A DNA stretch of 64,000 nucleotides from Antedon mediterranea (taxonomy: Eukaryota; Echinodermata; Crinoidea; Comatulida; Antedonidae). Location of the stretch: the NCBI RefSeq assembly GCF_964355755.1, contig NC_092680.1:4193001-4257000 (forward strand), in the 5' to 3' direction. The first letter of the stretch is position 1, and each line of letters starts with the position of its first letter. Position numbers and translations under genes: made by a program. Below are positions 883 to 50,709 of the stretch, one piece after another. The notes beneath the pieces were generated by a model that was given only the letters and a program-made list of their open reading frames with translations, made no database searches and was not told the origin of the DNA.

Positions 883-3146
883 ATGAAGGTAAGATATAAT
901 ATTATCAGTGATTTACATGGCTTGTATTGTAGCATTAGTGCGTATCTGTAGTGAGCATGGCCAGCCTAGTCTGTTTATAATAGGACAGTTTATCTCCATC
1001 CATGCACCACAAAATAATTTAGTCCAACTAAATAACAAGCCATACATTTGTACTTAATTTCTGTTGCACTATTATTATTTCAACCATACTAACGTGAATA
1101 ACATAACTATAAGAAAACAGCATTTTAGACATGAAGAATGAAATAGGTTGTTGTAAATGTTTTATTTTAAAATTTAATCGTTTAGGCCTAATAACAGTAT
1201 TTTACAGAGCCCTATATGGTGTTTTTTTAATCTGCATTTTTAATAGTTATTTAACAGTATTTTAACATTTTAATAGTATTATAACATCGCCTTATGCAAT
1301 TTGATGTATTTTCTTTGTTGTTTTATTGTTTTAATTGCCAAGAAACAAGAATTTCCATTTTAAAGTGGACTAATAAAATGTCTTGAATCTTTATTATAAG
1401 CCCAAGGAAGAGTGAGAAATTTCACTCTTCTCTGATATAGGCCTAATTAACATGTTCTACTATAAGCTTACGCCTACTATACTAATGCTAATAGTTCAAT
1501 TGAAATACATTTTCACGCTAGTGATCACTGTGGTTTGTAGGCCTTGATCAGCCTGTAATTAGCTGTTATAACCCACATACCTTTAGGCCTACTGTAAGTT
1601 GCTGTACTCTAACACATGCTTAAACCACCAAAATCATCGAGATCGTATGTTATTATAGGAGGTGCTGTTTCAATTTATTTATTTTTTTATTTTTTTTATA
1701 TTATAAAATAATTTGCAGTTTGCATCCACAAAATACAGCTTCATACAAATATGGTAGACCTACATAATTTATATTTAAAAAATAAAAAAATTCCTTGTTT
1801 GAATTGGGTATTTGATTATGTTATTGATGATCCATTTGAAACCATTACAACATGTATATTTCTTTCCCTGTAGGCCTTTTTATCTGTAAAGTCATCTTCA
1901 TTATCTCTCTACAGAATACATTTTTTTGCAGCTATTGTAATTTATAATAATGTCACAAAAATGGTTGCAAGATATTGACAATATACGTTAATTTGACTTC
2001 AGAAAGTCAGTGTCGTAAAGTTATTGTGACGTCAGTCAATTGTCGCGTAAAGTAAAAGGGGAATTCCCTAGTTTGTACTTTGTGACAGCGAACACAAGTG
2101 CATGTCCAATCAATGTAATTAGTACAAAAGATCCAAAGGACCACGTGTGCGTTATCTTTTTAATACACTTAAAACGTTCACAAATACGAAAGAAGGCATG
2201 TTTGTATATTATAGTAATTAGGCCTATCAAATTTTGAACGTGGCAGTGACGTAGCTTGGTAGTTTGGTGCTGTTATTACCCTTATTAAAAAAAAATATAT
2301 ATATAGGCCTAGAAAACATTGAACAAATTACATTTTTCTTTAAATTTCAGACTGCCACTATTTTAGTGATTATATTTACAATGACTACTGTTATCTTAGC
2401 CAATTCAACGAGACAAGTAAATGACTATGTTATTAGTTACCAACCACCGAACAACAGTGATACACAACTTACTATAAATACCACAGCTAAATATAAAAAA
2501 TGTTGTAAGTATTTCTAACGTTTAACATTACAAAGTTTAATTCCCATATTAGGACGCAACGCAAGGACGTAGGCGCAACGTAAATAGTTTGACCAATCAC
2601 ACAGTCGATGGATTATTCGAACTGCCGCTTGTATGATTGACCAAATCACTCGCCTACGTCGTTGATTTCCTTAACATGAACGATAATATGAATAAAATCA
2701 AACCTTGAATATGCCATTTTAGTTTTGATAACGTTATTCACTGACGCAGAGAAAAAAAACACACAATAAAAATATAATGATCAAAAAACTATAATATATA
2801 TCGGTTTTGTGTATTTTCAGCTAACGTTGCTATCCTCAATCAAACCAGAGAAGGATTCGAACAAGAAAAATGGAACTGCAAGTCAACGATAGTCACTTTA
2901 AAAAACGAACAACGTATTCCGATGCTTGTTGACAACGTAGTTTGTCAATGTGACCAATGTGTGATACATGGATGTCCAGGAAGGTGTCAAGAAATCTATT
3001 ATGAGGTGCCTATGTTATTTTATGCTGACAGGATTGACGAAAGCCTGTCGTGGTTCGAAATGCGCAAAGAAAACGTATCAGTCGGCTGCCAATGTGTCGC
3101 AAACAGCGGCAAGACATGGAAAAGATGCAGAAACTCACATTGTTGA
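883..3146 (+). CDS. IL17: IL-17-like secreted cytokine, gene 1 (3 coding exons)
   Basis: Predicted secreted cytokine with an IL-17-type cystine-knot core. Coding exons are 883-888 (ATG AAG), 2351-2504 and 2821-3146, joined at phases 0 and 1 with clean GT..AG sites, giving 161 residues. Residues 1-19 form a signal peptide. The core starts at WNC (73), followed by NEQRIP (82-87), cysteines 95, 97, 100, 105 and 109, then YYEVP (113-117) and the terminal VGCQC (141-145). These match the IL-17 order of R-x-P, clustered cysteines, x-V-P strand and V-x-C-x-C. Two extra C-terminal cysteines (156, 161) are unusual, and the CPxxY motif of the neighbouring paralogues is replaced by WNC. It heads a plus-strand set of four related genes and has its own TATA promoter. 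Intron 1 carries a CRE plus kappaB pair. Family assignment is firm; the choice of receptor or ligand subgroup is not possible. Confidence 0.8.
2027..2068 (+). promoter_or_regulatory. intronic CRE + kappaB pair
   Basis: A perfect palindromic CRE (TGACGTCA, 2027-2034) is followed 23 bp later by a perfect kappaB palindrome (GGGGAATTCCC, 2058-2068). Both lie within intron 1 of IL-17-like gene 1. Rel/NF-kappaB and CREB/ATF/AP-1 sites commonly drive cytokine genes, so an enhancer role is inferred. Confidence 0.5.
2541..2672. repeat. family B inverted-repeat element (degenerate copy)
   Basis: Lies in intron 2 of gene 1. It has the family signature: ACGCAACGCAAGGACGTA at the left, TTGACCAATCAC internally, and decayed complementary arms with GATTGACCAAATCACTCGC. 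The outer ends are eroded. Confidence 0.6.
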
Positions 3147-3187
3147 TCAAATAATGTCGAATTATATAAGTATATTAATTTATTTTA

Positions 3188-3193
3188 AATAAA
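3188..3193 (+). terminator. polyadenylation signal of gene 1
   Basis: AATAAA occurs 42 bp after the stop codon of the first IL-17-like gene, a suitable distance for a short 3' UTR. Confidence 0.55.
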
Positions 3194-3861
3194 GTAGTTT
3201 TAGCAGCTTCAGACACCACCAACGTTATTTTACTATATAAAATTTATTATACTTTTTACATTTAGGATGCAATGGGCTTTCAACCGTGAATATTTTAAAT
3301 TCATATGTTTGGGTTTAACCCTTTCACTTAAAATTGTCACTTTTTAATTTTTGACCAACTCGATGATAATTTAGTATATAGCTTGGAATCAGGTAGTTAA
3401 TTGGCCAGATGTGTTTACGTCAGCAGCTGACCAATCTAATGTTATGCAAAATTGATGAAACCGTTCAAAATTAATTATTATTTATAAATTGTAATTATTA
3501 TAATCTATATTATATACATATCACCTTGAAAATAGATACTACATTCAACTTTAACTTTTTAAAAAAATTTAAGGATTTAAGTCCTACTGAAATTACAGAT
3601 GTGATATTAATTCATTGGAATGGTATTATACATTTCATAACATGTTTACATTTTTTATGAAAAACATTGGGATAATATAACATAATGTTACATTATGATA
3701 AATTTAGTGTTTCCTAAGCTAACAAGGCCGATAACCACTAATAACGCAATGGTGCTCAATTGATTGCGGTGCTTATTTGATTACGGGGTTTATTAATTGT
3801 AATCCTTTATTAATTTTATCATTTGATCATCACTTTGCTTCTTCATTATCTTCTTATTGTA

Positions 3862-3985
3862 TTTTATATAACACCTAAATAAATTCCTGTCATTTGATTG
3901 GACGATTGTGGGTCACATGGCGTGCAATAGTACGCACTAACGATCGTTTAATAGTACTTTAATAGATTTATGAAGCAGCCCAAGC
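3862..3985 (+). repeat. family D dispersed repeat, copy 1
   Basis: Contains a TATATAACACCTAAATAAAT edge, then TCCTGTCATTTGATTGGACG, a GGGTCACATGGCGTGCAATA block and AACGATCGTTTAATAGTAC. The same series appears reverse-complemented at 9640-9787, so this is a dispersed element of unknown class. Confidence 0.6.
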
Positions 3986-18547: not shown

Positions 18548-19168
18548 ATGCACGGAAAATCAGGAGCAACAGCTATAATTAGCATAACTACCTGTATGAT
18601 GCTGTTTTACTTCACATCTTCACATGCAAATCCACTGCGTTCAAAACGTGCAGACAGCAATAACTCTATGTACAATGCAAACGCATCTTGTCACAATGTA
18701 TCGTCTGATGCGCAGTCAATTAACTTTTATCCAAATACGGACATTCTCCGTCTTCACGCATTTGATTATACCCTACTTGCAAATGATGTAAGTTCCAATC
18801 ACTCGAACGCAACGACGACGCAATCTTGCCCGTATGGTCAACCACCATCGTCACCCAGCATACAAGATGCAGGGTTATGTCCATTCGAATTTTACACTGA
18901 ATATAAAAAAGATCGTATTCCAGCTACAATAACGAAGGCTAGGTGCTTGCCGTGCAGTACGTGTATCGATCCGTTCACAAATGCCGCTTCTTCTACGTTA
19001 CGATGCCAGCCCGTTACGTACACGTTTACTGCGTTGAAACGCGTCAGTTGTGATAGTAACGCGTTCCATTATCAAGAGTACACCGAAGAGGTTCAAGTGG
19101 CGTGTATGTGTAGCAGACGCGTGAATACAAATACAGGGTCTATCAATTATCAAGGCAGAGAAAATTAA
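18548..19168 (+). CDS. IL17: IL-17-like secreted cytokine, gene 2
   Basis: Encodes 206 residues in one coding exon. A hydrophobic signal peptide (about 1-28) is followed by a basic RSKR (31-34) that could be a propeptide site. The variable region (35-93) holds several N-x-S/T sites. The core begins at CPYGQPP (94) and continues LCPFEFY (110-116), DRIP (122-125), cysteines 133, 136, 139, 153 and 168, PVTYT (155-159) and VACMC (184-188). This order is the IL-17 cystine knot. It is clearly paralogous to genes 3 and 4, sharing HAFD, CPY, CPFxxY and TCIDPFTN, but lacks the intron that those two carry between CPYxxxP and LCPF, so the intron was lost here or gained there. The first ATG after a splice acceptor was chosen as start. 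Confidence 0.88.
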   Translation: MHGKSGATAIISITTCMMLFYFTSSHANPLRSKRADSNNSMYNANASCHNVSSDAQSINFYPNTDILRLHAFDYTLLANDVSSNHSNATTTQSCPYGQPPSSPSIQDAGLCPFEFYTEYKKDRIPATITKARCLPCSTCIDPFTNAASSTLRCQPVTYTFTALKRVSCDSNAFHYQEYTEEVQVACMCSRRVNTNTGSINYQGREN

Positions 19169-21534: not shown

Positions 21535-22350
21535 AATATTCTTATTACGAAAGTTCTAATAAAAATTGTTCTTATATTATATATTCTTATTAAGCATGTC
21601 TTTATAAAAATTGTTCTTATAATATATATGCTTATTAAGTATGTTCTTATAAAAATTGTTCTTATATTATATATTCTTATTACGTATGTTCTTATAAAAA
21701 TTGTTCTTATATTATATATTCTTATTAAGTATGTTCTTATAAAAATTGTTCTTATATTATATATGCTTATTAAGTATGTTCTTATAAAAATTGTTTTTAT
21801 ATTATATATTCTTATTAAGTATGTTCTTATAAAAATTGTTCTTATATTATATATGCTTATTAAGTATGTTCTTATAAAAATTGTTTTTATATTATTTCTT
21901 ATTAAGTATGTTCTTATAAAAATTGTTCTTATATTATATATTCTTATTAAGTATGTTCTTATAAAAATTGTTCTTATATTATATATGCTTATTAAGTATG
22001 TTCTTATAAAAATTGTTTTTATATTATATATTCTTATTAAGTATGTTCTTATAAAAATTGTTCTTATATTATATATTCTTATTAAGTATGTTCTTATAAA
22101 AATTGTTCTTATATTATATATTCTTATTAAGTATGTTCTTATAAAAATTGTTCTTATATTATATATTCTTATTAAGTATGTTCTTATAAAAATTGTTTTT
22201 ATATTATATATTCTTATTAAGTATGTTCTTATAAAAATTGTTCTTATATTATATATTCTTATTAAGTATGTTCTTATAAAAATTGTTCTTATATTATATA
22301 TACTTATTACGTATGTTCTTATAAAAATTGTTCTTATATTATATATTCTA
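21535..22350. repeat. 45-bp minisatellite, ~18 units
   Basis: Unit pattern TTCTTATTAAGTATG, TTCTTATAAAAATTG, TTCTTATATTATATA (45 bp). Because 45 is divisible by three and stops are avoided by chance, long ORFs of 15-residue repeats run through on both strands (IRTIFIRTYLIRIYN-like on the minus strand). One unit near 21890-21900 lacks a few bases. This is not a gene. Confidence 0.9.
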
Positions 22351-24779: not shown

Positions 24780-25665
24780 ATGAATTCAATGGATATTCTC
24801 AAGCTGGTATTATGTACTTTGGTATTCAACATGGCAATGGTGAGCGGCAACCCGCTATCATCTAGACTAAGACGATCAATTTCTTCGACTGCGAATCAGG
24901 ACGGGCCTTACAGTACTTGTTCGAATACTACCTCATTAGAGCGAACAATGTACTATCCACAAACAACTATTATTCCTGTACATGCGTTTGATGTTAGTTT
25001 GTTGCTGCCCGGTGACTACGACACACAGAGTAGCATTCCGAATAGGGAATGCCCATACAATCAGGCACCCAGTAAGTTTTATTTTACATTATACTACCTA
25101 AACCATGGAACTATAAAATTAGATAATTTTACATCCATTCCAAAACAATGTATCCATGGAGATAGCTTGATATATCTATACATTACGAACCAGATAGAGT
25201 AAATAGTGTACTTTGGACATTTCTAGAATCGTTTAAATAATTCACTGTTCAAATAAAGTGCAGGGAACTGAATTGGTTCCGGTTAAATAATCGTGAATAT
25301 TGTAACATATTCTTATTTTTTTATTGTCTTTTTTTGCAGCTGATTACAGTCTATCTGAGTCTGGTCTGTGTCCCTTTGATTACTACGAAGACTATCAATC
25401 TGATCGTATCCCAGCCAGAATCATGAAAGCAAGATGCCGGCCATCTTGTACAACATGTATTGATCCTTTTACCAACAAACAGACGTCAGCATTGCAGTGC
25501 AAAGAAGTAACGTATACAATGACGGTAATGAAAAAGGTTGGATGTGAAGGTGATGTGTTTAAGTATGAACAATACACTGAAGAGTTTCCAGTAGCGTGTG
25601 TCTGCCAGCGAACTGTAAGACCACAACCACCTAGAAGAGATGATACTGGTCTGCCACCACTTTAG
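24780..25665 (+). CDS. IL17: IL-17-like secreted cytokine, gene 3 (2 coding exons)
   Basis: Coding exons 24780-25071 and 25340-25665 join at phase 1 (CCC A / CT GAT), giving 205 residues. The signal peptide (about 1-23) is followed by a basic SRLRR stretch. The variable region contains HAFD (68-71) and CPYNQAP (91-97). Exon 2 holds the IL-17 core: LCPFDYY (107-113), DRIP (119-122), cysteines 130, 134, 137, 151 and 166, and VACVC (182-186), with a proline- and arginine-rich tail. The start could instead be the second Met (24789), which aligns with the start of gene 4. It is the closest paralogue of gene 4, about 3.4 kb away. Exon 2 of the two genes is almost identical while exon 1 has diverged. 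The proximal kappaB-like site suggests inducible expression (inference). Confidence 0.88.
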
Positions 25666-25878: not shown

Positions 25879-27045
25879 TTCTATTCTTTTTTAATTGCTA
25901 AAGATTCGTTCGTTATAGAACTTTAACGTGCCTTTTATATTATCAAACACAAACATATTAATTATTGGCTATACACTGTTTGTGCTAATTTATTATTAAT
26001 GAGTTTAAATGAAATGGAAGCTTTATAAGTATTACAGAATACATGTGGTTTTAACACATGTATCATAATGTTGGATAAACTCACTGTTGTTAACAGAAAA
26101 ATGATATGTATCTACTGTGTAGAGAATACATTGAGGAGCTCGTCACGTGACGTAAGTTCCAATCTAAAGAAAACAAAAAATATAAGCTAACTTAGCCTGT
26201 GTAGGCATACATTACAGCAGTATAATAATGTACTATTTTGAATATTTGTAAATTTATATTAGGCCTACTATTATTAATTATGATATTGTATGGTGTATTC
26301 CTTTTAGACATAACTAAGATTGTATATTGTATTCCACTTAGACATAACTACAAGTGATTTTTATAGAAAATAATAATAATTATTCGTATTTGAATCCAAA
26401 AAATTAAAGATGCTATAATTAACTATACTGTATATATAACTGCTAATCACAAATGAGATTTTATAAGCAGGAAATTTAGTTATCTAGTGCTATGTCAATT
26501 AGACTGTTACAGTTGATAAGAAAGTTAATGGCTCGTATTTATTAATGCTATTGTATATTTTTGATTTTGCTTTAGAATTTTTTAATTTTATGTAGATCGG
26601 CAATGATTACAGCTTATTTTCTATTTTGTTTACCATTACTTAGAAAGTAACAAACTGTATGATAAAAGTTTGAAACAATTACTGTAAATGTCAATATGAA
26701 CATAAAACGTATTTAGGTTGTTTATGATTACTGTTTTTACCTTGAAAGAATGAAAAAAAAAACACTAGGGCCTATAGATTCACGGTTGTAATTTCCGGAT
26801 AGGCCTATTTTTAAATATTTTATAAGCCTCTTGAAAATGCATTGAATTCAAATATTCTATTTGTTTCTATTGTTATTTGCTTATACTAAGCTTGCATATG
26901 ATCGTCTATTGTTGTAGTGTTAGTTTATTATGATTATCATTCACGATTATCTTAAACATTGAATGTAGAACAATTATTCTTTATCATTTTTGCTTCAAAT
27001 AAATATCATCGTATGAATCAATACTATTGAAGTTGTTTCTTTTTT
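25666..27045. other. intergenic with (TA)n, no gene seen
   Basis: Contains a pure TA repeat at about 25845-25875 and otherwise AT-rich unique sequence. No exon was recognised. Confidence 0.4.
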
Positions 27046-28234: not shown

Positions 28235-29175
28235 ATGCGTATTTTGAAGTTGCTATTATGTGCTCTCGTATTCTACGACGTGACGGTGAGTGGTAACCCC
28301 TTATCGTCCAGGCTAAGCAGAACAACTTCTTCCACTGACGGACCCTACAGTACTTGTTCGAATACATCTTCAATAGAACGAACACGTTACTATCCACAAA
28401 CAACTATTGTTGCTATCCATGCATTTGATACTAGTCTGTTACTCGATGAATCTGGCAACACAGAACATGCAATTCCTGATAAGGAATGCGCATACAATCG
28501 GGTACCAAGTAAGTATAAATGTAAAGCTCTGTCTACAATATCAAATTTTATGTGACAACAAAATATGATGTGCCCATTATATGGACATGATGATGTTATA
28601 ACACTACCATATTTAGGCATATCATTACCATATTTGGGCACATCACACTTTTTTTGTTAAACTAGTTTGATAGTGTAGACAGAGCTTTACATTACCCAAG
28701 ATAATATTTCAAATATGGTATTTTAAATATCCGGAGTCTATCGAAATACCTCACTGTTGAATAGTGTAGGAAAACAATCTTAGTTAGTTCCGGTAGAACA
28801 TCAAGTAATCACCATGTTCATATTTCATAATCATATTTTTTTGCAGCTGATTACAGTCTATCTGAGTCTGGTCTGTGTCCCTTTGATTACTACGAAGACT
28901 ATCAATCTGATCGTATCCCAGTCAAAATCATGAAAGCAAGATGCCGGCCATCTTGTACAACATGCATTGATCCTTTTACCAACAAACAGACGTCAGCATT
29001 GCAGTGCAAAGAAGTAACGTATACAATGACGGTAATGAAAAAGGTTGGATGTGAAGGTGATGTGTTTAAGTATGAACAATACACTGAAAAGATTCCAGTA
29101 GCGTGTGTGTGCCAGCGAACTGTAAGACCACAACCAAATAGACCAGATGACGGTGACTTGCAACAATTCAGTTAA
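28235..29175 (+). CDS. IL17: IL-17-like secreted cytokine, gene 4 (2 coding exons)
   Basis: Coding exons 28235-28508 and 28847-29175 join at phase 1 (CCA A / CT GAT), giving 200 residues. The signal peptide (about 1-20) ends near VSGNPL. The variable region ends in CAYNRVP (85-91). The core carries LCPFDYY, DRIP (113-116), cysteines 124, 128, 131, 145 and 160, and VACVC (176-180). It is a tandem duplicate of gene 3; exon 2 differs there by only about six bases over the first 280, while the signal and variable regions differ at roughly a third of residues. The intron contains a family A element that gene 3 lacks. An in-frame ATG at 28202 would add 11 residues, but 28235 aligns with gene 3 and gives a standard signal peptide. 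That upstream ATG stretch may be 5' UTR. Confidence 0.87.
28522..28690. repeat. family A MITE-like element in gene 4 intron
   Basis: Complete copy: left TAAAGCTCTGTCTACAATAT, right GTGTAGACAGAGCTTTA with AAACTAGTTTGATA. It fills about half of the intron of gene 4 and is absent from the equivalent intron of gene 3, so it inserted after the duplication or was lost from gene 3. Confidence 0.85.
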
Positions 29176-29381
29176 GAATTACAACATTTTGTCTTTCTTT
29201 CTAACAGAAAAAAAACCTGAAGCCTGAAATCATGATTGTTTATATTTAATGAGTTCTGTAAATAGTAATTGCTGATGACCTTCATGAAATACTACAATGT
29301 ATTTAAATATATTAGGCCTATCGTGGAAATACCTAGTTATTTCGGGTTGTTTTACTTTATCGTTTTGGCTTAGTGTTTTAC

Positions 29382-29580
29382 TTAAAGATATAATTATTGT
29401 CACCCTAATTTTGTTTTCCAATTTTTTTGTTGAATATGCCATATTAATGTCACATAATGGTCACATATTCACTTTGACCAAAACTGGATCGAAACAAAAA
29501 TGATTTACCCGAAAAAATGTAATTTAATTGAAGCAAAAAATACTTAAATTGTCTATCAGACATTGGTTTTTGGTTAAAAT
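29382..29580. repeat. family C partial copy
   Basis: Left part resembles 27046-27234: TTAAAGATATAATTATTGTC, TTAATGTCACATAATGG, TTTGACCAAAACTGGATCG. The right terminus is missing. It lies downstream of gene 4, as the 27 kb copy lies downstream of gene 3. Confidence 0.55.
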
Positions 29581-30888
29581 TAACCGTTTCTTTGTCTTTT
29601 TATAAGTGAAATAATTTTTTTTACAGAAGTGAATAATTTTATTAAAACTGCAAACTGTTCTTTTTACAGTTCATTTCATATTATTGGGGTCATACACCTA
29701 ATTATTTCATCTGAGGTCTATCTCAATTGAGATCAAGCCAATGATAACAGCATTGTCATGTTTTTTCAATAATGTGCTTATATGTATCTACTGTGTAGAG
29801 AATAAACAAAATAGAATAAAGGATACTTTATGTAAGTTGATTGTCTGCAAACTACAATACAACCACAATATTGACAAAGTGGCACATAACAAGTCACTCT
29901 TTCTGTTGGGTGGTAGAGCAAGTATTCTAATTTAAATGATGACAGATTAAATCATGTGATTTTGTATAATATTATCATAAAGTTAACATTGGCTTTATGA
30001 GTGAGCATGTGAACTACTCTGCATCTAACTTCATTAAGGCTATTTGAAATTTATTCAATTCAATATTTCACGTGATGAGTCATCTATGCATTATCACGTG
30101 ATGCAAAACAATTGTCTATTTTGTATTTTCATAATTTGTTTTCATTTCTTAAATAGGCCTATACATTTTCTGTTTATACTATTAATAGATATAGAAGCAT
30201 ATAGCATATTAATAGCGCTCCTTCAAATTGCATGCAACGGCCTGACCTACGCTCATTGGTCGTCTCAAATTAATCCGCCAAAATTATGTAGAGTACACTG
30301 TAATCCAGTGAAAAATGTTCGTGCATGCACACATTGATATGATGTGGTCGTCCAGGTCATTACAGATGGTTCCCATCAACCACAATCACTAATTTCAAAT
30401 TGATAAATCTATTTCATTAATAAATAATAATAATTGAAGTGTATAAAATTTGTTTTTTTTTTATATTGTTATAGGCCTGACGGGTGAAGCAAAGAGAATC
30501 TCTCCATTAAGTAAGGTATCTCCCAAATAGTATGTGTCCAGTAATAGCCAAATTCCTTAATACAGCATCTCATGTGTATCACGGGGTGGTGGCTGTATCA
30601 TGTGGAATATGATACGGCGTAACTTCTGATACAGTACTGTATCACGTACCGTATTATTCTGTACTGGGAAAATTTAAATACAGTATCGAGAACTGGCTAA
30701 GAACTGAACAAAACAATGTAATAAACTATTAGTATTTGTGACCGATCACAAAATACGGATGACAAACATTAGAGAGAAACTCAGTAGGTATACCGCCATG
30801 TGCTCAGGACGGACCTAGGACCCTAACTTGCTAAAAAAACAATGGCGAGCACAGGCGAGTCGCGCGATGTCTAACGACGACTGGCGTT
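29581..30888. other. intergenic, no gene seen
   Basis: Unassigned. TTAATACAGCATCTCATGTG and GGCTGTATCATGTGG near 30560-30605 resemble part of the inverted repeat at 38062-38262, so a related repeat fragment is present. Confidence 0.4.
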
Positions 30889-31036
30889 TAAGCTTGGTTC
30901 CCACTAGGACGTAAACGCAACGTAAGCGAGTTGACCAATGACAAGCGACAGTTCGAATATGCCATCGCTTGTGATTGGTCAACTCACTTACGTTGCGTTA
31001 CGCCCTTGTGTTGCGTCTCTAGGGGGAACAAAGCAT
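30889..31036. repeat. family B inverted-repeat element
   Basis: Left AAGCTTGGTTCCCACTAGGA, centre TTGACCAATGACAAGCGACA with ATCGCTTGTGATTGGTCAAC, right GGGGGAACAAAGCATTAA. Near-complete. Confidence 0.8.
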
Positions 31037-32414
31037 TAAAAATAAGACGAGAAACTTCTATTTGGTTATTATTGATTAAACCAACGCTTAACCAAATAAT
31101 AATGTATAGTACCTTTTCCCCTCGGTGCCCTCCCGCTAAACGTCGTTCAAAATGTTGTTTTGTTTAAACTCAACGAATCCACTAGTGTTTAAGCATTATG
31201 CAAATGTGTGGGATGGGGGGGGGGGGGGGCTGGGGTACATGCACATGTAAGACTATAATAATATAGTGATTAATTATTAAATTCTGTTTTATGAACGTAA
31301 TGGCATGTCATGTCTGAATATAATAGGCTTATAACTGTAGACAAATATATAATATAATGTCTACACTGTGTATTTAATCAATAACTACACTGTATTGTGT
31401 GTTGCTCATTGTCAATGATGTGATGGAAATATACTACATCAGTGGAAACTGTCAGAAAAGCAGAAACAAAAGCGAAAAATAAATAAAAAAACACTATACA
31501 TGAGTGCTGGTGGTTCCATTCGAAGACATTATCACGATGAAATAATGATTTCATTTTCTTATTTGATTTCAAATTATTTGATTGGAAGTCCTTTGTGTGA
31601 AATTTAATATTCAAATCCTAGTTCTTGGGTTGGGTTAGCCAATACATTACGTCACACAAATATACCGGTATGTAAGTTTCCATTCATTCAGTCTGACCAC
31701 AATGTATTTTCCCGTGGTCAGATAATAATTTAGTGTATAGTATTTTCCATGTTCGTAACAAACCGCAGGTTATTTTACAATTTACCAAAAAAAAAAAAAT
31801 GGATAAAAATACATTAAGACATTAAGATAGTATTTTCAATTAGCCTATTATGTTATCTAATCATAATGCATAGGCTACGGTTATGTAAATTATTAAATAT
31901 TGATATATATGTATATATTATTTTAAGTATAATATTATACAATAAATGTTATTATGAATAACTGTATCATTTCTGTAGCGCTTTGCTCAATGAGGTCACG
32001 GAAAGTAGTGGAAACCATTGATTAAATTATGACAGGTTCAATATAGTTATTTTCCATTACAAAACATTATTACGGTGTGTTACTGTTATTCGTCAAGGAA
32101 AAAAACAGAAATGTTGCTCAGTAGGTCACAATGGATACGGATGGCTAATCCCAAAGCCTTATCATAAGTACATCGCTCAGTCTTGTTATATTTTGCATCG
32201 TTATTCGGCGTTTCAATACAGAGTTATATAACTTTTCTTTATTGGATTTTCCCGACGTGCCACTCGAAAATTAAGAAATTCTAAGCCGATAACATGACGG
32301 GCACTCTTGAATATTACAAGGCCTATTTAATCAGCAAGTATAAGTCTATATTCTGACAATCATTTATTTCACCTCTAATGTTGATTGGTCAGTTGCCTGT
32401 CCATCTCAGCCCTC
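31037..32414. other. intergenic with poly-G run, no gene seen
   Basis: Contains a poly-G run near 31215-31229. No exon recognised. Confidence 0.4.
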
Positions 32415-32574
32415 TTAAGCTCTACATCAAACTAGTTTGACAAAAAAAGTGTGATGTGCCCAAATATGGTAGAGGTATGCTTAAACATGGTAGTGATATG
32501 ACATCATCGTGTCCATATAGGGGCACATCCCATTGTTTTGTCACATAAAGTTTGATAATGTAGATAGAGCTTTG
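32415..32574. repeat. family A MITE-like element
   Basis: Left TTAAGCTCTACATCAAACTA, with ATGGTAGTGATATGACATCA internally, right TTGATAATGTAGATAGAGCT. Several substitutions in the left end. Confidence 0.75.
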
Positions 32575-33562
32575 GACGGTCAATTATTCAATCCTGTGAT
32601 GAACAAATACAATATTGAATCATAAAGCTTTACCTCATTGTGTGCAATTTGTATTATTTAATAACGATGATAGCATTTACAGATTATTATTGCCATTTAA
32701 AAAATGTTTATACATTGATTTTATATGTTGTACAAGACTGCTTCTCCTGGAGGTTTTATGAAATAAACAAAACTGTTTTTGTATTATGTACCTTTTTTTT
32801 TAAATTGTCATGGTACTGATACAAAAAGTTTAATATTTTTACTGACTTCATTATGTCTTTTATTATATTCAAATAATTTTATAATAATAATTATGGTTTT
32901 GTTTGCATTGTTTCTTAGTTGGTAGAAGCTGGTGATTAAGCACTTTACTTCAAGTGTTTCCTCTATATATACCACTGGGTTAGGCCTAACTATGTCATCA
33001 AAAAGACCTTTAAACTTTAAAATAATTACTGTAAACGTCCCCGTTCGTATTTTCACGTTCGGGAAAATACAACATACACAAGAATAAGCTTTCTATAGAA
33101 CTTCCTCACTCAGGGCTTGACAAAATTAGCCACACGCCACACTACCACGTGCAGACTTCAGTTGCGGGAAAAAGCATTTTTAACCAAAATAAAGCCTCTG
33201 TATCGCATGATTTAATAGAACAATTAATCTGAATGATATATATATATATACAGTATCAATTTAAAATGACACGAGAACAAAAAACAACCCGGAAATCATT
33301 ATAAAACTAGAAATTTGAAATGAGGTACAATATAACACCGATGTGTTCATATACTTTGAATGAATTTTTCATCTGATCAAATCGATACATAATATACAGG
33401 AAGCTAATAAAAGACCAAACTATGAAACATAAACAAAAAGATATAGCTTCCTTTGATGAAACAGAACAAGAAACATAAAACAACGTTAAAATTAAAGTTC
33501 CTTTACTTAACTTCGATAGAGAAAAAGATTAGAGAAAATGATTGACTATTGAATATTAAATT
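32575..33562. other. intergenic, no gene seen
   Basis: AT-rich; short ORFs without domains. Confidence 0.35.
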
Positions 33563-33972
33563 AATGACTGACCGACTGAATATTAACTGACAGGCCGACT
33601 GAATATTAACTGACAGGCCGACTGAATACTAACTGACAGGCCAACTGAATATTAACTGACTGACCGACTGAATATTAACTGTCAGGCCGACTGAATATTA
33701 ACTGACTGACCGACTGAATATTAACTGACTGACCTACTGAATATTAGCTAACTGACTGACTGAATATAATTTAACTGACTGACCGACTGAATGCTAATTG
33801 ACTGACCGACTGAATATTAACTGATTGACTGAATATTTACTGACTGACCGACTGAATATTAACTGACTGACCGACTGAATATCGACCGACTGACTGGTAC
33901 ATTAATGACTAACTGGTACATTAATGACTGACTGGCCGGCTGAATATAAATTAACTGACTGACCGACTGAAT
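33563..33972. repeat. GACT-based minisatellite (~23-bp higher unit)
   Basis: Units like ACTGACTGACCGACTGAATA plus TTA repeat about 16-18 times with variants (GACAGGCCGACT, GACTGACCTACT). The unit itself is built from GACT quartets. Confidence 0.85.
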
Positions 33973-35104
33973 AGTTGACGATTGACTGGACGACAGCGCG
34001 GCTATTATTTTTAGCGTGCGCAGCAGACACTGCAGTGTTGTTCTATTATCGCGTCATAAAATCGAAGAGTTATTAAAATCGTCATTAGAAATCACTCTTG
34101 CAGTCAGTTGAGGGAGACAAACATATTTTAGTTAATGTCACGTCTAAAAGTAATTTCGATTGTACTTGCATTTTTATTAAATTTAAAATTTATTTTAAAC
34201 TGAGATAAAATTTGAATATAATGTTTTAAAGGCTTGTTGTTTTAACCTCAAAGTCAATATTAATTTCTACTTTGATAGGATGCTCTTAAGACCATCTTTA
34301 ACTTCCCTCTTCCTTGTTTCGAGTATTGATGTTAAAAGAAGTAACTAAACTGGTGATACTTAAGTCATCATGCATGGTTATGAATATCCCCAAATAACCA
34401 TTTTCTCTGAAATTTTGACTATAATTTTCGGTTGAAACTTACACTGAGAATCAATTACGATTTTGAATTTTCTAGACATTACAATGCATTCATTTATGGT
34501 AGAATACGGAAGGATTGGTGTTTTGTAATATCGATTTTTACTGTTAAACTTGAACTATTATTTTTAAAACCAATAATATATTTTTTTTTAATAATCTGTG
34601 GTCTCTAGCATACAAACCTCCTGGTTTCCTGAAACCCCATTTCATCATTTTCTTGAAACATTGTACATATTATAATTTTTATTATGACTTGATGAATAAA
34701 TGTATCATTGTATTTTTTTGGTAGTTTCCTGGAGAATTTAATTTTAATCGTATTATTAAGTATTATGCACAAACGCTTCAGTCCTAATGCAGTTCGTAAA
34801 TGAAAAGTTAAAAAGAAAAGCCTATTATTAATATTTGAAGTATTACAATATAATTCTTTTATTTCAATGTAACAATTGTATTGTTGACATATACTATACT
34901 TTTACAAGTGACATTTTGCACGACAATGTGTACAAGAAAACTGTACATCATCTCACATCATGTGGAGAAATCATGGAAGAAAAAGGTTTATGATTTAATA
35001 ATAGAACAAGAATGAAAGTGCAGTACGTAGTAGTAACCGTTCGTAAAGTAGAAAGTTTGTTAATGAGAAGGATTTTGCTTTTTGAACCATAAGCTCTGCA
35101 AAAC
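33973..35104. other. intergenic, no gene seen
   Basis: No exon, repeat family or RNA gene recognised. Confidence 0.35.
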
Positions 35105-37205
35105 GTACACACTAAAAAAAAAAGGTGCAAATCTCTACCTAAAAAGGTGCAAACCGATGCAACAATAGCAGCTCCCTTTAAGGTGCACAACTGCACCTTT
35201 GACGGAAGGTGCAATTTTGAACCCTGATAAAGGGTGCTATAATGCTCCTTTGGAGTTCACATTTGCACCATATAAGGTGTAATTTTCTACCCTAAAAGGT
35301 GCAAACGAAATGCAACAATAGCAGCTCCCCAAAGGAGCAAAATTCAACCTCTAAATAAAGGTGCAACTTTACACCCTAATAAAAGGTTCAATAATGCTCT
35401 TCTAAGGTTCAAATTTCTGTTAAAAAGGTGCACAAATAAAAATCACCAAAATACAAAAAAATATTGATTAAGCTTGGTATAATTTTATTCAACTTTAAAA
35501 CATTACATTATTCAATTCAACTGCTGAATTATTGGATGGCAATTACCAGTCTTTGCACCTTAAATAGAGTGTGGCCATCTCTTCTCAAACCAACAATAGG
35601 CCTATTGCTAAAAGTATCTAATGATGACATCTTTGACAGTATTCTCTTCTTATTCCCATATATCTGAAACAGTGTTCTTGATGTCTGGTTCACCTTTTTT
35701 CCGAACATTTTCACCTGATTATGTACTTTCCTAAAAAGCATGAAATAGGAAGGGAAACTATTATATTAATATTATCATTAATATGACAATATCATACAAT
35801 ACATTATTGACATTGTTCTGATTTTTAAAGTCAAATTACCTTGTCCACATGCTTCACATACTTTAAAGTATGTTCCTCTCCCTTTCCTCAGCTCGTAGTA
35901 TAGTAGGCCCTATATATAATAGAGTATTACGGTACATGTGGTCACATTTCTTTCTCCTTTTCTGGACATCTTCATTGCTGCTGATCAGCAGAGCAGAGGT
36001 GCTCTTTCATGTTTAAACTTATTTTATCCCTCCATGACATCATGTAGGCTGTAACTATTTATAATTAAAAATAAAGTGTATAAGAAGAATTAATATAGCC
36101 TATAGGTAGGCCTAGGCATAATAATACCCAACTACACTACTGTAACTAATATTAATAACTAGGCCCTAGGCTAGGCCACTAGCCTGCCTAGCTAGGCCTA
36201 TTATTAATTATAGGCCTAGCCGCCTGGCCTAGGCTACCCTCTAGCTAGCTAGGCCTAGCTAGCCTTATTTATTTATTTAGCTATCATTTTAGGCCTAGGC
36301 TTATAGGCCTATATAATAATTAATCTAATAAAAACCACCAAATTACATGCCTATAAAGCTTCATTACTTACTTTTAACACGGGAGAGGTGTGGCATCCGG
36401 GAGCTAGACCTAGTTTTATAGGCCTGATTTTTTGGGCGCAAACTCCTCTCAATATTTAAACTGCATGTTTAACAACCGCACGCGCTTAAAATTATTGTTC
36501 AATTCCTGTTTCAAATAAATTTACAACAGATGCCTACATTATGATATTAAATATTCTAATAATATTGTTAAATATGAAAGAAAAGTTTACTTATTCTAGA
36601 CTTAAGCAAACCAGAGTAAATAACCTCTGAAATTCAATATTTTAAAAATTGTTTACAGACATCTTGCGTGCGCATACGGCACGAAAATTGTACAAAAAGG
36701 TGCTATTATGCACCTTTTAACTGATGTTAAACCTTATAGGGTGCCCAGTTGAACCTTTGAATTTATCATGTTAAAGGTATAAAACTTTAATTTTCAGTTA
36801 CAAGCCAGCGACTTTCTAATGTTCCGTAAGAAACAGATTTTTTCGAATTCCGATATTATTATGAATCTTTCTTATTTTTGTTTTAACTTACCACAATAAT
36901 GTCATTCTAAAAAAATTGTCATAATCATTACCTTTTAAGTTTTTAGAAGCCCTAAGTTAAATATATCAAGAAGCGTTCATTAATCTAACACTAATAGGTC
37001 TTATTTTGTCACACAGTCACCATGGCCTACTTGGGCCTTTGTGGTGCAGTTCTGCACCTTTTTATACTTGTCTGCATTTTTCGATATAAAAGGTGCAAAA
37101 ATAAACCTTTTATGAACTCTGCACCATTTTATGAGAAAAAGGCGCAAATTAGCACCATTTTATAGGTTTGCACCCTTTATTGCACCTTTAGTTTTAAGTG
37201 TGTAC
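35105..37205. mobile_element. 2.1-kb inverted-repeat element rich in AGGTGCAA
   Basis: The edges are mirror images: GTACACACTAAAA at the left and TTTTAAGTGTGTAC at the right. Both 300-400 bp ends are packed with AAGGTGCAA / TTGCACCTT motifs and variants. The left end also has an internal duplication (GCAACAATAGCAGCTCCC at about 35158 and 35311). The middle (about 35460-36680) is unrelated and has a CTAG/AGGCCTA-rich part. No transposase is encoded, so it is a non-autonomous fold-back-type element of unassigned superfamily. Confidence 0.7.
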
Positions 37206-38061
37206 TGCACTTGATCATAAAATTCCGAAGACAATGGTTGCGTAGCACAATGATGCGGTGATTGGCTGATTCGAAGATTAAGTGATCACTTACTGCTATT
37301 TCAAAGCAACCAGCCAAATACAGTTTTCACACTTGTTTTCACAACAAGTTGGTCCCTTGGCCTAGCGATAATAAGCCTACCGATTAAATGGTAATAATTA
37401 TCAAATAGGATAAGTTTTTATAGCCCTTAAATATAACAAATAATGAATCACTTACTATAACAGGAACTGTGATGATTACAAAACACATTTCGATGTAGAT
37501 TGAAAGTTTTCAGAGATATACGTGCAATAGGCCTACATGACGATAAGACGTATGTCCTACTCAGCGATATAATTCTGATTGACACGTGTCATTCAATTCT
37601 TACCCAATTCTCGATTCATGTATGGAAAATATTACAACATGAGGGGTTAAGCTTTGGCCATTTTTGACGGTTTTATATCTATTTTTGACAGATTACTAAT
37701 TTCATATCAGGTTACCGATCCTCCGTTTTATCCTGGATTCGCCCTTGGTATTATCTATTTGTTGGGGTGGTAGTTGTCTGGGGTCAGTTTTCCAGGTGGT
37801 ATACAGACAAGAACAACTTGTAGGCCTAGTACTAGACTTACATCTATCATTAGTATTACATTTACTGCCGTTCAGTATTGTAAAAAAATGCACCCCTGGC
37901 TCTACAAAAAAGTAATGAAAAGACATCTATTCACACGACTTGAAACTAGCATTTGGATAGGCCTACCCCTCACTTCACTCGGCAAATGATTCCATGATTT
38001 CTATATAAAGTTTTGTACCAGCGACACGGAGCGATCTGATGTGGTAAGTCCCGATTTCCAG

Positions 38062-38262
38062 TGCTGTATCTCCACATAGACCCTACTATCTATTTCCAAA
38101 GTATCATAGGAATATTTTTATAATACAGCATCTTATTTATATCACATGTGGTGCCTGTATCATGTATGGTTAACTAGGTTACTACTAGATAGATGTTAAA
38201 CACAAATGTGATGTGGTATTAACAAACATTCCTATGATGCTTTGGAAATAGATAGACCTACA
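38062..38262. repeat. inverted-repeat element
   Basis: Arms around CTATCTATTTCCAAAGTATC (about 38088-38107) and its near complement GATGCTTTGGAAATAGATAG (about 38236-38255) flank a centre with a TGTATCATGT motif. Outer ends also pair weakly. Confidence 0.55.
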
Positions 38263-39308
38263 GTACCGAGAATCGGTTGGTAAATGCGACATAGGGTGGT
38301 CGTCAAGTATATGTTTTACTATTGGCTACATCTACTAACAAAGGTGAAAGAGCAACCATATACTCGATTCGATACAACTTATTATTATCGATACAAACAC
38401 GAAAAAAAAATCTTTCAACGCAATTCAAAACTTCTTTTCTGTATTTTAAGAAATCATTAGCTCATGTAATCAATCATTTATTTCATACATAAATATAAAA
38501 TATAAAGCAATTGTATACAAGACTGAAAATACCATAATAACATTTATTACGTACGTACGTAAGGTTGGTTAAGAAAGCTAATTGTTAATTAAGTTTGTGC
38601 TAATCAAAACTCATAATAAAGTATCCACCCACATACCATTGCCCTCCGTCCCCAGACGAGATGGCATAATGGAAACATTCATATTTTTATAATGATATAC
38701 ATAACAAGTTGAAGACAGAGGGCATTTTAGCAGGTGAGAGAGCTCAGAGTTTTTACCCAGATCATCATGAAGCACACCGCCACACCGAATAGGACAAAAT
38801 AGGCCTAAATACATTAATTCACGTTTGTGAAGTACAGAACTGGGAATCTTGATAGATTATTCAACATTTTAAACTATACGACATTGAAAATTTGTTACTC
38901 TTCCTTCACACATGGATGTCTATTTTTATACCTCCATGCTTTACACATGATGATGATTAATACATCTTTAACAATATAATAAAGTTATTTTAATAACTTA
39001 AACACATAATTAAATATTGGAATGTTTATGAAGAACTTTCATTACATGTTAGTAGATAGGCATATGTCCTTTTAAAGTTTATAAATCAGCCTATAAAACA
39101 AAAGGTGCGTCGTTACTCCTACGCTGGACTTTGACTTTAGATGTATGATGTCCTGATTTTGACTTTAGATGTATGATGTCCTGATCCAGATTATTGTATC
39201 TTCTTAAAATGCATCAAAGAAAAAAACACCCCTTGTGGTGTGGAAGTAATTGTTTCTTTCTTCTCCTCTGATTGTCAGTGGATCGTCTGCTAAACATAAA
39301 AAAAACGT

Positions 39309-39794
39309 TCAGTTCGAAGGCCTGGAACAAGTACAAGCCACAGGTATAATTTCATCAACGGGTTTATAGGTGTAGACCCCGGATTCACATTTGCCTGTCT
39401 TTCGTAACACGGTAGTGATACGCAATATCGGTTTACACGACAAAAGAGCTGCAGCGGAATCGCGTTTAGTCTGGCATTCGTCACACATGCACCTGGCTAC
39501 GGACACCCTTGATGGGATCCGATCCGGATCGTCGATGTTTTCCATACGGTACGGACACAGTGTGGTAGCATCTGTTGGACATTCTTCTTTATCGGAAGCA
39601 TACGTGCTGATTCCGTCGTCGATTGGATCAAATCGTAACACTTCAGCCAGCTGGGAATAAAGAGTTTGTTCCAACGGTTCATTACATTCGAGGTCTCGGA
39701 ATTTCGTTTCCAGTATAGTATTGGTAAAACTATACGGTCCTGCAATTGCGTTGCAAACCAGGCCAAGAACAACACATATGGAGAGTACCTTCAT
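39309..39794 (-). CDS. IL17: IL-17-like secreted cytokine, gene 5
   Basis: First of three minus-strand members; 161 residues in one coding exon. A splice acceptor (GTCTTTCAG) sits directly before the ATG, so the 5' UTR is interrupted by an intron. Signal peptide about 1-18 (MKVLSICVVLGLVCNAIAG). The core starts ECPTD (71-75) and LCPYRMEN (79-86), then DRIP (91-94), cysteines 102, 104, 107, 120 and 136, YTYKP (141-145) and VACTC (152-156). The cysteine order agrees with genes 2-4, but the short form of the variable region (about 50 residues) and sequence divergence show an older split. Its own TATA promoter is visible at 40197. Ligand role in mucosal or immune defence is inferred from the family. 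Confidence 0.87.
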   Translation of the reverse strand: MKVLSICVVLGLVCNAIAGPYSFTNTILETKFRDLECNEPLEQTLYSQLAEVLRFDPIDDGISTYASDKEECPTDATTLCPYRMENIDDPDRIPSRVSVARCMCDECQTKRDSAAALLSCKPILRITTVLRKTGKCESGVYTYKPVDEIIPVACTCSRPSN

Positions 39795-47546: not shown

Positions 47547-47623
47547 ATGATCCATCACGTCGTGATTTGTCAAATTATTGGCAGTGCGCTTACGTACGTC
47601 CTAATAGAGGGAACTATGCTTTA
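47547..47623. repeat. family B partial copy
   Basis: Keeps CGTGATTTGTCAAATTATT, TTACGTACGTCCTAATAGAG and GGAACTATGCTTTA; left arm missing. Confidence 0.45.
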
Positions 47624-47818: not shown

Positions 47819-47983
47819 ACCGTACTTTCAAAACATCCGTATAAGAGGATATACGTTGTCACATGCCAAGCAGCACAACTTGTGAATACAGTGGGTTGTA
47901 CCTCCGGAAAAATCTTTCTAAACACGGCCCGGAACTGTCCAGAACTAACAGTTCGTCATGTGGGTAATCAACAATGCCAATAA
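47819..47983 (+). CDS. possible orphan terminal exon, unknown product
   Basis: An open frame after a plausible acceptor (TAGTTCAG) runs 54 codons to TAA, with four cysteines and balanced composition (YVVTCQ, NTVGCTSGK, ARNCPELTV, NQQC at the end). No family is recognised and no upstream exon was found. Cysteine spacing does not fit the IL-17 core. It could be a fragment of a secreted-protein gene or chance. Confidence 0.2.
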   Translation, partial: TVLSKHPYKRIYVVTCQAAQLVNTVGCTSGKIFLNTARNCPELTVRHVGNQQCQ

Positions 47984-48128
47984 TACCTACTGCTTAATAT
48001 ATGTCCCTATTAAATTTTTCTTTTATTGAATTTTCCAACTTTGCATTGTCTAAATTGTATATTTCATGTTATAGACATATATTGCTTTGCGCGTATCATC
48101 GTCCTTAAGTATATAACGTGACCGACAC

Positions 48129-48268
48129 AAAGCTTGGTTCCGATTGGACGCAACGCAACAAGGTAGCCTCAACGCAAGTTCGGATGACTTATCGCGCGCG
48201 TCGTAATTGGCCAATTACTTGCGTTGCACCTTTTTCGTTGAGTTGAGTCCGAGTGAAAACGAAGCTTA
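48129..48268. repeat. family B degenerate element
   Basis: Left AAGCTTGGTTCCGATTGGAC, right GAGTGAAAACGAAGCTTAA. The arms have more mismatches than other copies. It abuts a family C element at the shared TTAA. Confidence 0.65.
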
Positions 48269-48590
48269 AAGATTGTCCCCCAAAAACATGAAAAATGAAG
48301 ATTAGTTAAATCAGACTTTGAATATGTTATTTATGTAGTTTTAATCAAGTTAATCACTTCAATAAAAAAAATGTTTTCACTTGACAAAATAAAATTGTAA
48401 AATTCAACCAAAAATCCATTGGCTGGCAGCCAATTTGACCATTTTTTTGCTTTAAATTACATTTTTTCAGATAAATACATTTTTTTCTATCCAATTTTGG
48501 GTTAAAGTGGATAACTATTATGTTACATTAAAATGGAATATTAAAAAAAAAAATTTTAAATTATTTTTCAGGGTGACAATTTATCTTTAA
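48266..48590. repeat. family C TTAA-ended element
   Basis: Left TTAAAGATTGTCCCCCAAAA, right GGGTGACAATTTATCTTTAA. Contains CCATTGGCTGGCAGCCAATT in the middle. Confidence 0.7.
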
Positions 48591-49483
48591 GTATAATTTA
48601 GAATGAAGAAGCTCAGAACATAACATTTTGTCACAAAACCTTTTATTAAATATCTATCATACTTAATCTATAAGTAACAATTACATATTTCGCATTATAA
48701 ATACTAAATTACACATTAATTATACTATTCTACATATTAAAGCAGCACAAAAATGCTTACATGATATGATCACGTTATTTGATACAAATGACGTAATTTG
48801 TGTTTTTTTTTAATTTGAGATCTTTTTATATAATGTATACACCAAGACCCCATTATAAATACAATAGCCTATATAAATAATTAAATATATTATGTCTTAT
48901 AATAAATAATAAATAACACATATTGCAAATAATACTACTTTCTACAGAGTGCTTTAAACTAACATTTTTATATTCACAATAGATATTATACTGTAATAAA
49001 CTTCACGTTCAACTTATAAGAAGTAACAATATTAATATATAGGCCTAGTAGATTCAATTAAAACAAAGATTATACGTAACTTTAAATACTTTTGTTCACA
49101 ATAAATGCATGGTTTACAAGCCTTAAATTAGGCTACATTTTACACAGCACACTCGGTAAATTGCTTCATTTTTGTTTTCACACACAAAACATCAATGTTA
49201 AGTACAAATTTAAACAAAACTCCCTAACTGTAAATTATGATGATAGCGGTATGGCATGATGTGAAGGAACATCATGTGAGAGAGGCATGGATTGTATCCG
49301 TAGATCGGAGGTAAAGCCGATGTACGGCATAATGGGACACCATAATGGTGTGTTAGGCCCTCTGGAAGAACAGTTTTTTTAGGCTATCCCAGTAAAAAGA
49401 ATAAATTATCTAATAAATAATATAAAACTATGAAAAATTTATTGTAATTGTGCAATAAAATAAATATTAAACTAAAGGTGTCT
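48591..49483. other. 3' flank of gene 7, no gene seen
   Basis: AT-rich. No exon or RNA gene recognised. Confidence 0.35.
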
Positions 49484-49594
49484 AAAGCTTAATTGCCTAT
49501 ACAACGTTTCAAGTGAGTTGACCAATCACAGGCGGCAGTTCGGATGATCATACGTGATTGGTCAAACTACTTGCGAAGTATAGAAACCAAGCTA
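49484..49594. repeat. family B partial element next to gene 7
   Basis: AAGTGAGTTGACCAATCACA and TACGTGATTGGTCAAACTAC form the centre; the outer arms are eroded. It ends 20 bp before the stop codon of gene 7, so it lies in that gene's 3' UTR. Confidence 0.6.
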
Positions 49595-49614
49595 TAGACA
49601 GACAGCCTATCGTC

Positions 49615-50100
49615 TTAAATACGTGATCTTGCACAGGCGAACCCAACAACTATTTCCTCAAAGGTCTGTTGATAATAGTACTTATCCTGAGTGTCCATAC
49701 TGTTTACACGTTTAAAAACAGGCACGTTATACTTGATTGCTTCGCATGTACCCCCGTGACCAATACAAGAACTGCAGCTACTATTTTTCTCTGATAGAAC
49801 TCGTGGTATTCGGTCGTTATCAATGTTTAATACGCTGTACCAGGGACACACAGCAGCATCGTCAATACTGCTACCCACATCAGGCGTCGAAGATCTTGGG
49901 CAGGAGGGGGCGGGTGACACCCCGCTTACAGGTGCAAATAAGGGTAAATTGTTAATAGATGTCTTGTTCGCGGCAAATAATAAAGCATTTGCACTTCGAT
50001 CCGTTCGTAACTGTTTGTGTTCGTCTATATTGTTGTTGTTTTGTTTTATTGGTATCGATACAGCATTCATTAATAAACAGCAACAGCCAATTAAATACAT
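49615..50100 (-). CDS. IL17: IL-17-like secreted cytokine, gene 7
   Basis: Minus-strand gene with 161 residues from the ATG that follows an acceptor (ACTTTTCAG). An upstream mini-exon at 50588-50602 (ATG GCG AAT TAC TTG, then GTATGT) could add MANYL in frame, so the true start may lie there. Signal peptide about 1-14 (or longer with the mini-exon). A basic LRTDR (31-35) precedes the variable region. The core has SCPRS (66-70), VCPWYSV (84-90), DRIP (96-99), cysteines 109, 112 and 119, KYNVPVF (123-129) and VGFAC (152-156). One cysteine of the usual pair in the last strand is replaced: FACAR instead of V-x-C-x-C, as in gene 6 (FVCRR). KYNVP is also shared with gene 6, so genes 6 and 7 may be sister paralogues. 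Confidence 0.83.
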   Translation of the reverse strand: MYLIGCCCLLMNAVSIPIKQNNNNIDEHKQLRTDRSANALLFAANKTSINNLPLFAPVSGVSPAPSCPRSSTPDVGSSIDDAAVCPWYSVLNIDNDRIPRVLSEKNSSCSSCIGHGGTCEAIKYNVPVFKRVNSMDTQDKYYYQQTFEEIVVGFACARSRI

Positions 50101-50709
50101 CTGAAAAGTAAACATACAATTTCAAAAGGTAGCAGTTATTATGTAACTTGTGAGGCCCAGCTCAGACCTATTCCACCCCAATCCTCCGTATTTTATTTAC
50201 AGAAACAATGGCAGTGAGTTCTGGTTATATGGTGAAAAAAAAACCCAGCAAAACGGAATAAAAATATTGTTAGGCTTATGCTGGTTTCTTGTCATCCACT
50301 TTTTTAATGTGAATTAAATTCACCACATATACAAGACAAAACTGGATAAAACATAAAACAAACACAACAAAACCAAACAAAAACAGGTAGACTTGTTTTG
50401 AAACGAAAATACATAAACATGGATAGTATAACATTTATATTACATTATTAAAAAATATTTGTTTTTTCAAATTTACTTAAATAAATACATTTTTAGTTAG
50501 ATACTCTTTTGACGGTTATGAAAATGTCAACACTTTTATGTATTATTTTCATCACTTTCTATAAATAATAACAATAATAAAACATACCAAGTAATTCGCC
50601 ATTTTCTAAGTCTGTGTTAGTAAAAATATCAAACAATTTATCTTGAGTTTTATCGACAACTTACAAAGTTCTCAAACTGAATTATGATGGATGCTAATTT
50701 TCCATAGGT

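Follow-up and report, generated by a model that had tools for sequence, protein, structure and literature searches.

Expansion of the interleukin-17 (IL-17) genes is known from sea urchins: in Strongylocentrotus purpuratus the SpIL17 family comprises 35 genes, the subfamily SpIL17-1 alone counting 11 genes with a mean identity of 94.9% (PMC5457136, in excerpt). An earlier note, made from the sequence alone, had pointed to this expansion when it described a group of IL-17-type genes in the crinoid Antedon mediterranea, and the tandem, unequal arrays published for S. purpuratus agree with it (same excerpt). Here we analyse the stretch in which these genes lie, a window of 64,000 bases (C11:4193001-4257000) in a genome of 354 Mb and 18 contigs, and we conclude that it very probably contains part of a tandem cluster of eight or more intact genes of the IL-17 family, with products that would be secreted; the cluster would have grown by old tandem duplication and in which the domain exon of two neighbouring members would later have been converted. 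The seven genes of the window are called g1 to g7, the member to the left of it g0, and a lone member on another contig the C5 gene.

The Antedon cluster is a real IL-17 cluster of an already known kind, and its likeness to SpIL17, as far as the excerpted sea urchin paper describes that family (PMC5457136), extends to several features: (i) both comprise genes of one to three exons, set in tandem, that encode IL-17 domains with the extra cysteine pair of invertebrates. (ii) SpIL17-1 and SpIL17-4 have a first coding exon of one or few codons, close to the pattern of g1, g6 and g7; the SpIL17-type layout, tandem genes whose start codon sits within or next to a very short first exon, is found in most Antedon members, less clearly in g0 and g4. 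(iii) Identity between subfamilies is about one third in both animals. In contrast, Antedon has nine genes against 35, and its close pair, g3 and g4, is alike over one exon only.

Extent and members of the cluster

With the Pfam IL17 profile (PF06083; 81 positions, curated cut-off 24 bits), eight loci of the genome score higher than this: the window has six, g0 stands just to its left, and contig C5 has one. Once g6 is added the IL-17 genes of the genome number nine, and eight of them lie inside about 52 kb of the 354 Mb. All nine have splice-consistent models with a single terminal stop, and all nine start with a hydrophobic stretch (best 10-residue mean 1.94 to 2.98, a measure of hydropathy only). 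The arrangement described from the letters alone, seven IL-17-type genes with four on the plus and three on the minus strand, standing tail to tail, is upheld: GT-AG models were obtained for seven of seven, six of the seven pass the Pfam cut-off (29 to 63 bits, E 1.2e-6 to 3.5e-17), the two blocks face each other across 29175-39309, and the outer limits, 883 and 50602, are the ATG of g1 and of g7 (minus strand), respectively. Seven is the right number for the window and too low for the cluster, because g0 falls outside the left window edge. The profile check of each product proposed in the earlier note succeeded for g1, g2, g3, g4, g5 and g7 and failed for g6, at 13.6 bits. The members are listed below, in window coordinates unless a contig is named.

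C11:4191090-4191956, plus strand: g0, eighth cluster member; the end of its last exon lies some 1 kb short of the left window edge; tiny first exon uncertain in the model
883-888, 2351-2504, 2821-3146, plus strand: g1, 161 amino acids, GT-AG introns and one stop; most divergent domain; Pfam 29.2 bits, E 1.2e-6
18548..19168, plus strand: g2, one coding exon, 206 amino acids; RSKR site after the predicted signal peptide; Pfam 59.8 bits
24780-25071, 25340-25665 (coding exons), plus strand: g3, 205 amino acids; Pfam 58.9 bits
28235-28508, 28847-29175 (coding exons), plus strand: g4, 200 amino acids, start codon provisional; Pfam 63.0 bits
39309..39794, minus strand: g5, single coding exon that begins at a splice acceptor; 161 amino acids; Pfam 54.1 bits
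46117-46115 (exon 1, Met only), 45722-45051 (exon 2), minus strand: g6, 224 amino acids; Pfam 13.6-13.7 bits
50602-50588, 50100-49615, minus strand: g7, 166 amino acids; Pfam 36.5 bits
Contig C5: the C5 gene, ninth member, alone on its contig

In g1, g6 and g7 the coding part opens with an exon of 2, 1 and 5 codons, respectively (3 to 15 bases), and the ATG abuts a splice acceptor in g5 and the C5 gene. By eye, acceptors stand 4 bases upstream of g2 and about 20 bases upstream of g3, no clear one being seen for g4, and g2 probably has a non-coding first exon upstream. The start codon of g4 is unsettled because a second in-frame ATG lies upstream.

A local profile run over the window with 30 kb to its left and 25 kb to its right returned the same eight genes, the best other frame reaching 9.0 bits (E 0.094), and genome searches with four of the nine proteins (g6, g1, g7 and g2) gave known loci and weak matches only. 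Among the latter, the match on C6 (E 2) comes from a bZIP protein that by eye looks like c-Jun; those on C2 (E 0.53) and C9 (E 1.69) have no IL-17 features by eye; and two weaker ones (C3 and C2) contain internal stops. None was retained.

Domain identity is 96% between g3 and g4, 53-55% between g2 and these two, and 14-34% for the other pairs among the nine, so the description of the members as very unequal suits most pairs and does not extend to g3/g4 or to their relation with g2. Both trees have long branches and no fully supported fork, for which reason the order of duplication cannot be given. Old duplication, perhaps followed by specialisation, had been proposed; the duplication fits most members, and the qualification concerns g3 and g4, which appear to share a recently homogenised exon.

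Because g6 misses the Pfam cut-off, we call it IL-17-like on its predicted fold and on its similarity to its neighbours. As a genome query it matches g4 (E 0.0036) and g3 (E 0.0089) at 29% identity. The AlphaFold2 model of its domain has a mean predicted local distance difference test score (pLDDT) of 81.5 and a predicted TM score of 0.63; its top match in Foldseek is IL-17F (E 1.3e-4, TM 0.69/0.66, root-mean-square deviation (rmsd) 9.4), the best 50 of 339 matches being IL-17 ligand entries or complexes. VIA-align gives a best Z of 9.8 with an rmsd of 2.3 over 81 residues, and again the best 50, here of 363 chains, are IL-17 ligand entries or complexes; one listed match, 5n7w, has the title of an antibody entry, but IL-17A is present in it as chain X. 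The model of g1 (pLDDT 79.0) has IL-17A as its best Foldseek match, with a best E of 7.2e-4 and IL-17 entries in the best 50 of 300. The structure prediction proposed as a check, run on g6 and g1, accordingly returned IL-17 entries among the matches listed. It could still be that g6, possibly together with g1, started as an IL-17 gene and is now turning into a pseudogene or has taken a non-cytokine role, as might be suggested by the few cysteines of g6 (four in the whole protein), by its long His-rich pro-segment and by the position of g1 and g6 as the two longest branches in the tree; yet both keep open frames, consensus splice sites, the invariant cysteines and the I-P, and we regard either course as unlikely.

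The domain exon of g3 and g4

Two tracts carry the second part of our conclusion, the evidence for them coming from blastn, NG86 and alignment:

25329..25643, plus strand: tract in g3 shared with g4, donor or recipient of the putative conversion
28836..29150, plus strand: matching tract in g4

The tracts are 96.8% identical over 315 bases of DNA, and their start lies some 11 bases ahead of the exon. For this pair of genes the signal/pro-segment exon has a synonymous divergence (dS) of 0.72 and a non-synonymous divergence (dN) of 0.24 (91 codons; NG86), against a dS of 0.10 and a dN of 0.056 in the domain exon (107 codons), where the changes fall mostly in the C-terminal tail. In terms of sites, the preceding exon has changed at 30 of its roughly 65 synonymous sites and the domain core at 2 of roughly 56 (Fisher p 2.8e-8, computed on rounded site counts and with the core picked after the table had been viewed); the whole domain exon has 6.5 of 68.8. 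The 600-base flanks of the two genes score within shuffles (3' 29 against a maximum of 41, 5' 28 against a maximum of 31), and for the intron the score is 36, one above the highest shuffle (35), and comes from the stretch leading into the exon. The pair is best read, and most simply read, as an old one whose last exon has recently been homogenised by gene conversion. Among the papers listed by literature searches, a weak basis, there was no report of gene conversion among echinoderm IL-17 genes and no survey of crinoid IL-17; this negative does not cover the text of PMC13337447, a paper in which the terms gene conversion, IL-17 and echinoderm all occur.

A recent duplication of the whole gene, followed by fast divergence of the first exon, would also produce a domain identity of 96%, and g3 and g4 are indeed neighbours with the same orientation and the same exon structure, with one 25-base block in common between their 3' flanks and with an intron score just above the shuffle maximum. 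Under such a history, however, the synonymous sites of the preceding exon would hardly stand at a dS of 0.72, nor would the 600-base flanks beyond the 315-base tract fall within shuffles, and we consider it quite unlikely.

Taking together the IL-17 cluster and the converted exon, the following points weigh against our reading: (i) g6 lies under the Pfam cut-off, its alignment covering positions 2-75 of 81. (ii) The Foldseek E values are modest (1.3e-4 for g6, 7.2e-4 for g1), and the rmsd is large among the top matches (9.4 and 7.4). (iii) The input alignments of both models included clear IL-17 siblings, which may pull the fold towards theirs, so that the models are supportive and non-independent. 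(iv) The g3/g4 tract could be a local misassembly. (v) The 3' flanks of g3 and g4 are not wholly unlike, having one exact 25-base block in common. (vi) A model of the IL-17 receptor ectodomain found no match, a result that the tool itself notes to be no proof of absence. (vii) Motifs for kB, AP-1 and C/EBP are not enriched upstream of the genes, the one strict kB match standing before g4.

Family motifs and knot cysteines

Compared with the PDB, a profile of the nine domains matches IL-17A (1.6e-9), IL-25 (5.1e-8) and IL-17F (2e-7), the next family being PTTH (0.0039); g4, the best single domain, on its own reaches IL-25 at no better than E 0.016. The earlier note had named a better match to other cystine-knot families as the result that would speak against it, and the comparison favours IL-17. 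That the genes belong to another such family (PTTH/Trunk, Spaetzle or neurotrophin-like) and merely resemble IL-17 is very improbable, since the PTTH match and the one window gene under the Pfam cut-off, g6, are set against an IL-17A match that outdoes PTTH by six orders of magnitude in that search, six window genes over the curated cut-off, and listed fold matches of g6 (50 of 339) and g1 (50 of 300) that are IL-17 entries.

The motifs on which the genes had been grouped fared unevenly. I-P is invariant in seven of seven, the fuller R-x-IP having been loosely stated, as five genes have D-R-I-P, g1 has Q-R-I-P and g6 R-S-I-P. The [KT]-Y-x strand is present in five of the seven (by eye, g1 has Y-Y and g5 lacks the motif). 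The terminal strand is as described, V-x-C-x-C in five window genes and F-x-C in two.

In the nine-domain alignment (A1, 103 columns), cysteine occupies columns 14, 43, 57 and 95 in nine of nine members. By analogy with IL-17F, we take columns 36, 43, 93 and 95 to be the knot residues, and the residues equivalent to columns 36 and 93 to be bonded to each other. All four knot cysteines are present in six of the nine (g1, g2, g3, g4, g5 and the C5 gene), which, beside the profile match and the predicted fold, is what the cluster has in common with human IL-17A, IL-17F and IL-25. Of these cysteines g0, g6 and g7 keep only those of columns 43 and 95; the other two are absent, with Phe standing in column 93 of each. 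No other column of the 103 shares the cysteine pattern of columns 36 and 93, and the exact chance of the coincidence is 1 in 84, for a pattern picked after viewing and in related genes; for these reasons the indication that the paired loss is non-random is suggestive only.

Differences in the cysteines have been described elsewhere. The third bond of invertebrate IL-17 is replaced by serines in chordates (PMC4517768, in excerpt). Set against the human proteins, Antedon has cysteines at the CP/QC pair (columns 14 and 57), reported as serine in chordates, and g0, g6 and g7 instead lack the 36/93 pair. SpIL17 subfamilies 3 and 9 are without the two C-terminal cysteines (PMC5457136, in excerpt), and two mussel isoforms, 18 and 21, have only four conserved cysteines, like g0 and g6; in the excerpted account their authors read two chordate-typical bonds, unlike the set kept in g0 and g6 (PMC8353272).

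We put forward, as a tentative and rather doubtful proposal, that g0, g6 and g7 form a two-disulfide class of IL-17 in which a knot bond was lost as a pair, one site becoming Phe, as a mirror of the chordate state. The complete proteins of g0 and g6 contain four cysteines each; as neither has a spare cysteine, they would be unable to form disulfide-linked dimers and might be non-covalent or antagonist ligands. The F-x-C members were not upheld as a clade: for one tree, a branch set them apart from all others in 50% of the bootstrap replicates (support 47/83); without four cysteine columns the grouping appears in 0% of 200 bootstrap trees and is not rejected (p-AU, of the approximately unbiased test, 0.134).

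Downstream block, surroundings and predicted function

The block common to the 3' flanks of g3 and g4 lies as follows:

26104..26128, plus strand: 25-base block, 439 bases past the g3 stop, identical to the g4 copy
29780..29804, plus strand: 25-base block, 605 bases past the g4 stop

It is the longest exact match between the 1-kb 3' flanks of the two genes, and when 400 pairs of 1-kb stretches were drawn at random from the window, 1 pair had a match that long. Searched against the genome with 66 bases of context (E 0.001), the block returned only the copy of g3. A second flank match, of 98 bases at 78.6% with its end near 29516, was discounted for its overlap with a dispersed repeat.

Within the block, UCUAC-UGU-GUAGA can fold into a hairpin whose stem has 5 bp and whose loop is UGU. 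When both strands of the window were searched for hairpins that combine a YRY loop with a C-G closing pair and five or more Watson-Crick pairs, a criterion set after the block had been seen, these two were the only ones; they are copies of one element, and none is found within 1 kb downstream of the other seven of the nine genes. Constitutive decay elements, which Roquin recognises, have a YRU loop consensus, with CUGUG an enriched loop and closing pair and stems of 6 to 8 bp preferred (PMC11609897, in excerpt). The g3/g4 block has the same YRU loop and C-G closing pair (CUGUG) as the element of vertebrate TNF mRNA, and differs from it in a stem of 5 bp rather than 6 to 8 and in its presence in only two of nine genes. 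The genome has one ROQ_II locus (E 2.0e-30), and a survey gives invertebrates one Roquin gene (PMC11172303, in excerpt). On the other side, the folding energy is ordinary (z -0.44 over 25 bases, -1.55 over 17 bases), the minimum-energy fold of the 66-base context lacks the hairpin, and poly(A)-like signals precede the block in both genes, which counts against its having a role in the message. Among the papers listed by literature searches, again a weak basis, there was no report of a decay hairpin in an invertebrate IL-17 gene. We consider it improbable that the g3 and g4 mRNAs carry a Roquin-type decay hairpin (C-UGU-G), and offer the shared block as a lead, not a finding.

Other features of the window and its surroundings are as follows:

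10754, 13595, 28522-28689, 40934, 41481, 47017, 61301, 63234-63366: copies of a short inverted-repeat family with end motif GTGTAGACANNGCTTTA, one copy in the g4 intron
21536-22349: minisatellite of 18 copies of a 45-base unit, open on both strands; its open reading frames (ORFs) of 299 amino acids are probably spurious
59544-60830: probable piece of a retrotransposon, an ORF of 428 amino acids in which a zf-RVT domain is recognised (E 1.9e-7)
L024:5789-6187, some 10.8 kb beyond the right window edge: exon with a confirmed WD40 match, PAK1IP1-like by eye
L002:859-1332: ORF ending in the PCNA-binding-like motif QKTLSTFF (by eye), with no Pfam match

The inverted-repeat family gives 10 matches with at most one mismatch, against 0 in 100 shuffles, and looks like a miniature inverted-repeat transposable element. 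Among exons examined from the genome, one of tektin-1 has as best PDB match 8snb, presumably a sea urchin sperm entry, at 182.4 bits, with the next entry at 138.9 (two of 21 tektin matches used), and a second tektin exon has Tektin-3 entries as best matches, at 208 bits, with 8snb at 121. These matches are compatible with an echinoderm or a near relative and say no more than that. COX1 gave no match.

Four SEFIR exons occur in the genome, on C10, on C4 and, in two near-identical copies, on C9, and the two of these four loci that were compared with the PDB both have IL-17RA/RB entries as best match. The near-identical genes (C9:1087677 and C9:1055032) stand about 33 kb apart and look like a recent duplication of a receptor-like gene. 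According to the excerpted paper, two receptors for IL17 are present in the sea urchin, in which Act1 has not been detected (PMC5457136). By extension from the family, each Antedon ligand would be secreted and would dimerise, the dimer would bind a pair of SEFIR receptors, and binding would drive an inflammatory response to bacteria in epithelium, such as the gut, or in coelomocytes, as reported for SpIL17 in the sea urchin. The genes would have arisen by old tandem duplication, the signal and pro-segments of g3 and g4 diverging and their domain exon being homogenised later by gene conversion.

The general view of IL-17 expansion in marine invertebrates is unchanged by this cluster. If the hairpin is present in mRNA, control of invertebrate IL-17 by Roquin becomes directly testable, and were the decay reading true, post-transcriptional shut-off of the IL-17 message would lie deep in animal history. 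What the crinoid locus adds is a chromosome-placed IL-17 set small enough for gene-by-gene study, in which the homogenised domain exon of g3 and g4 would be a clear example of its kind and the missing cysteines would offer a natural experiment on the loss of a disulfide.

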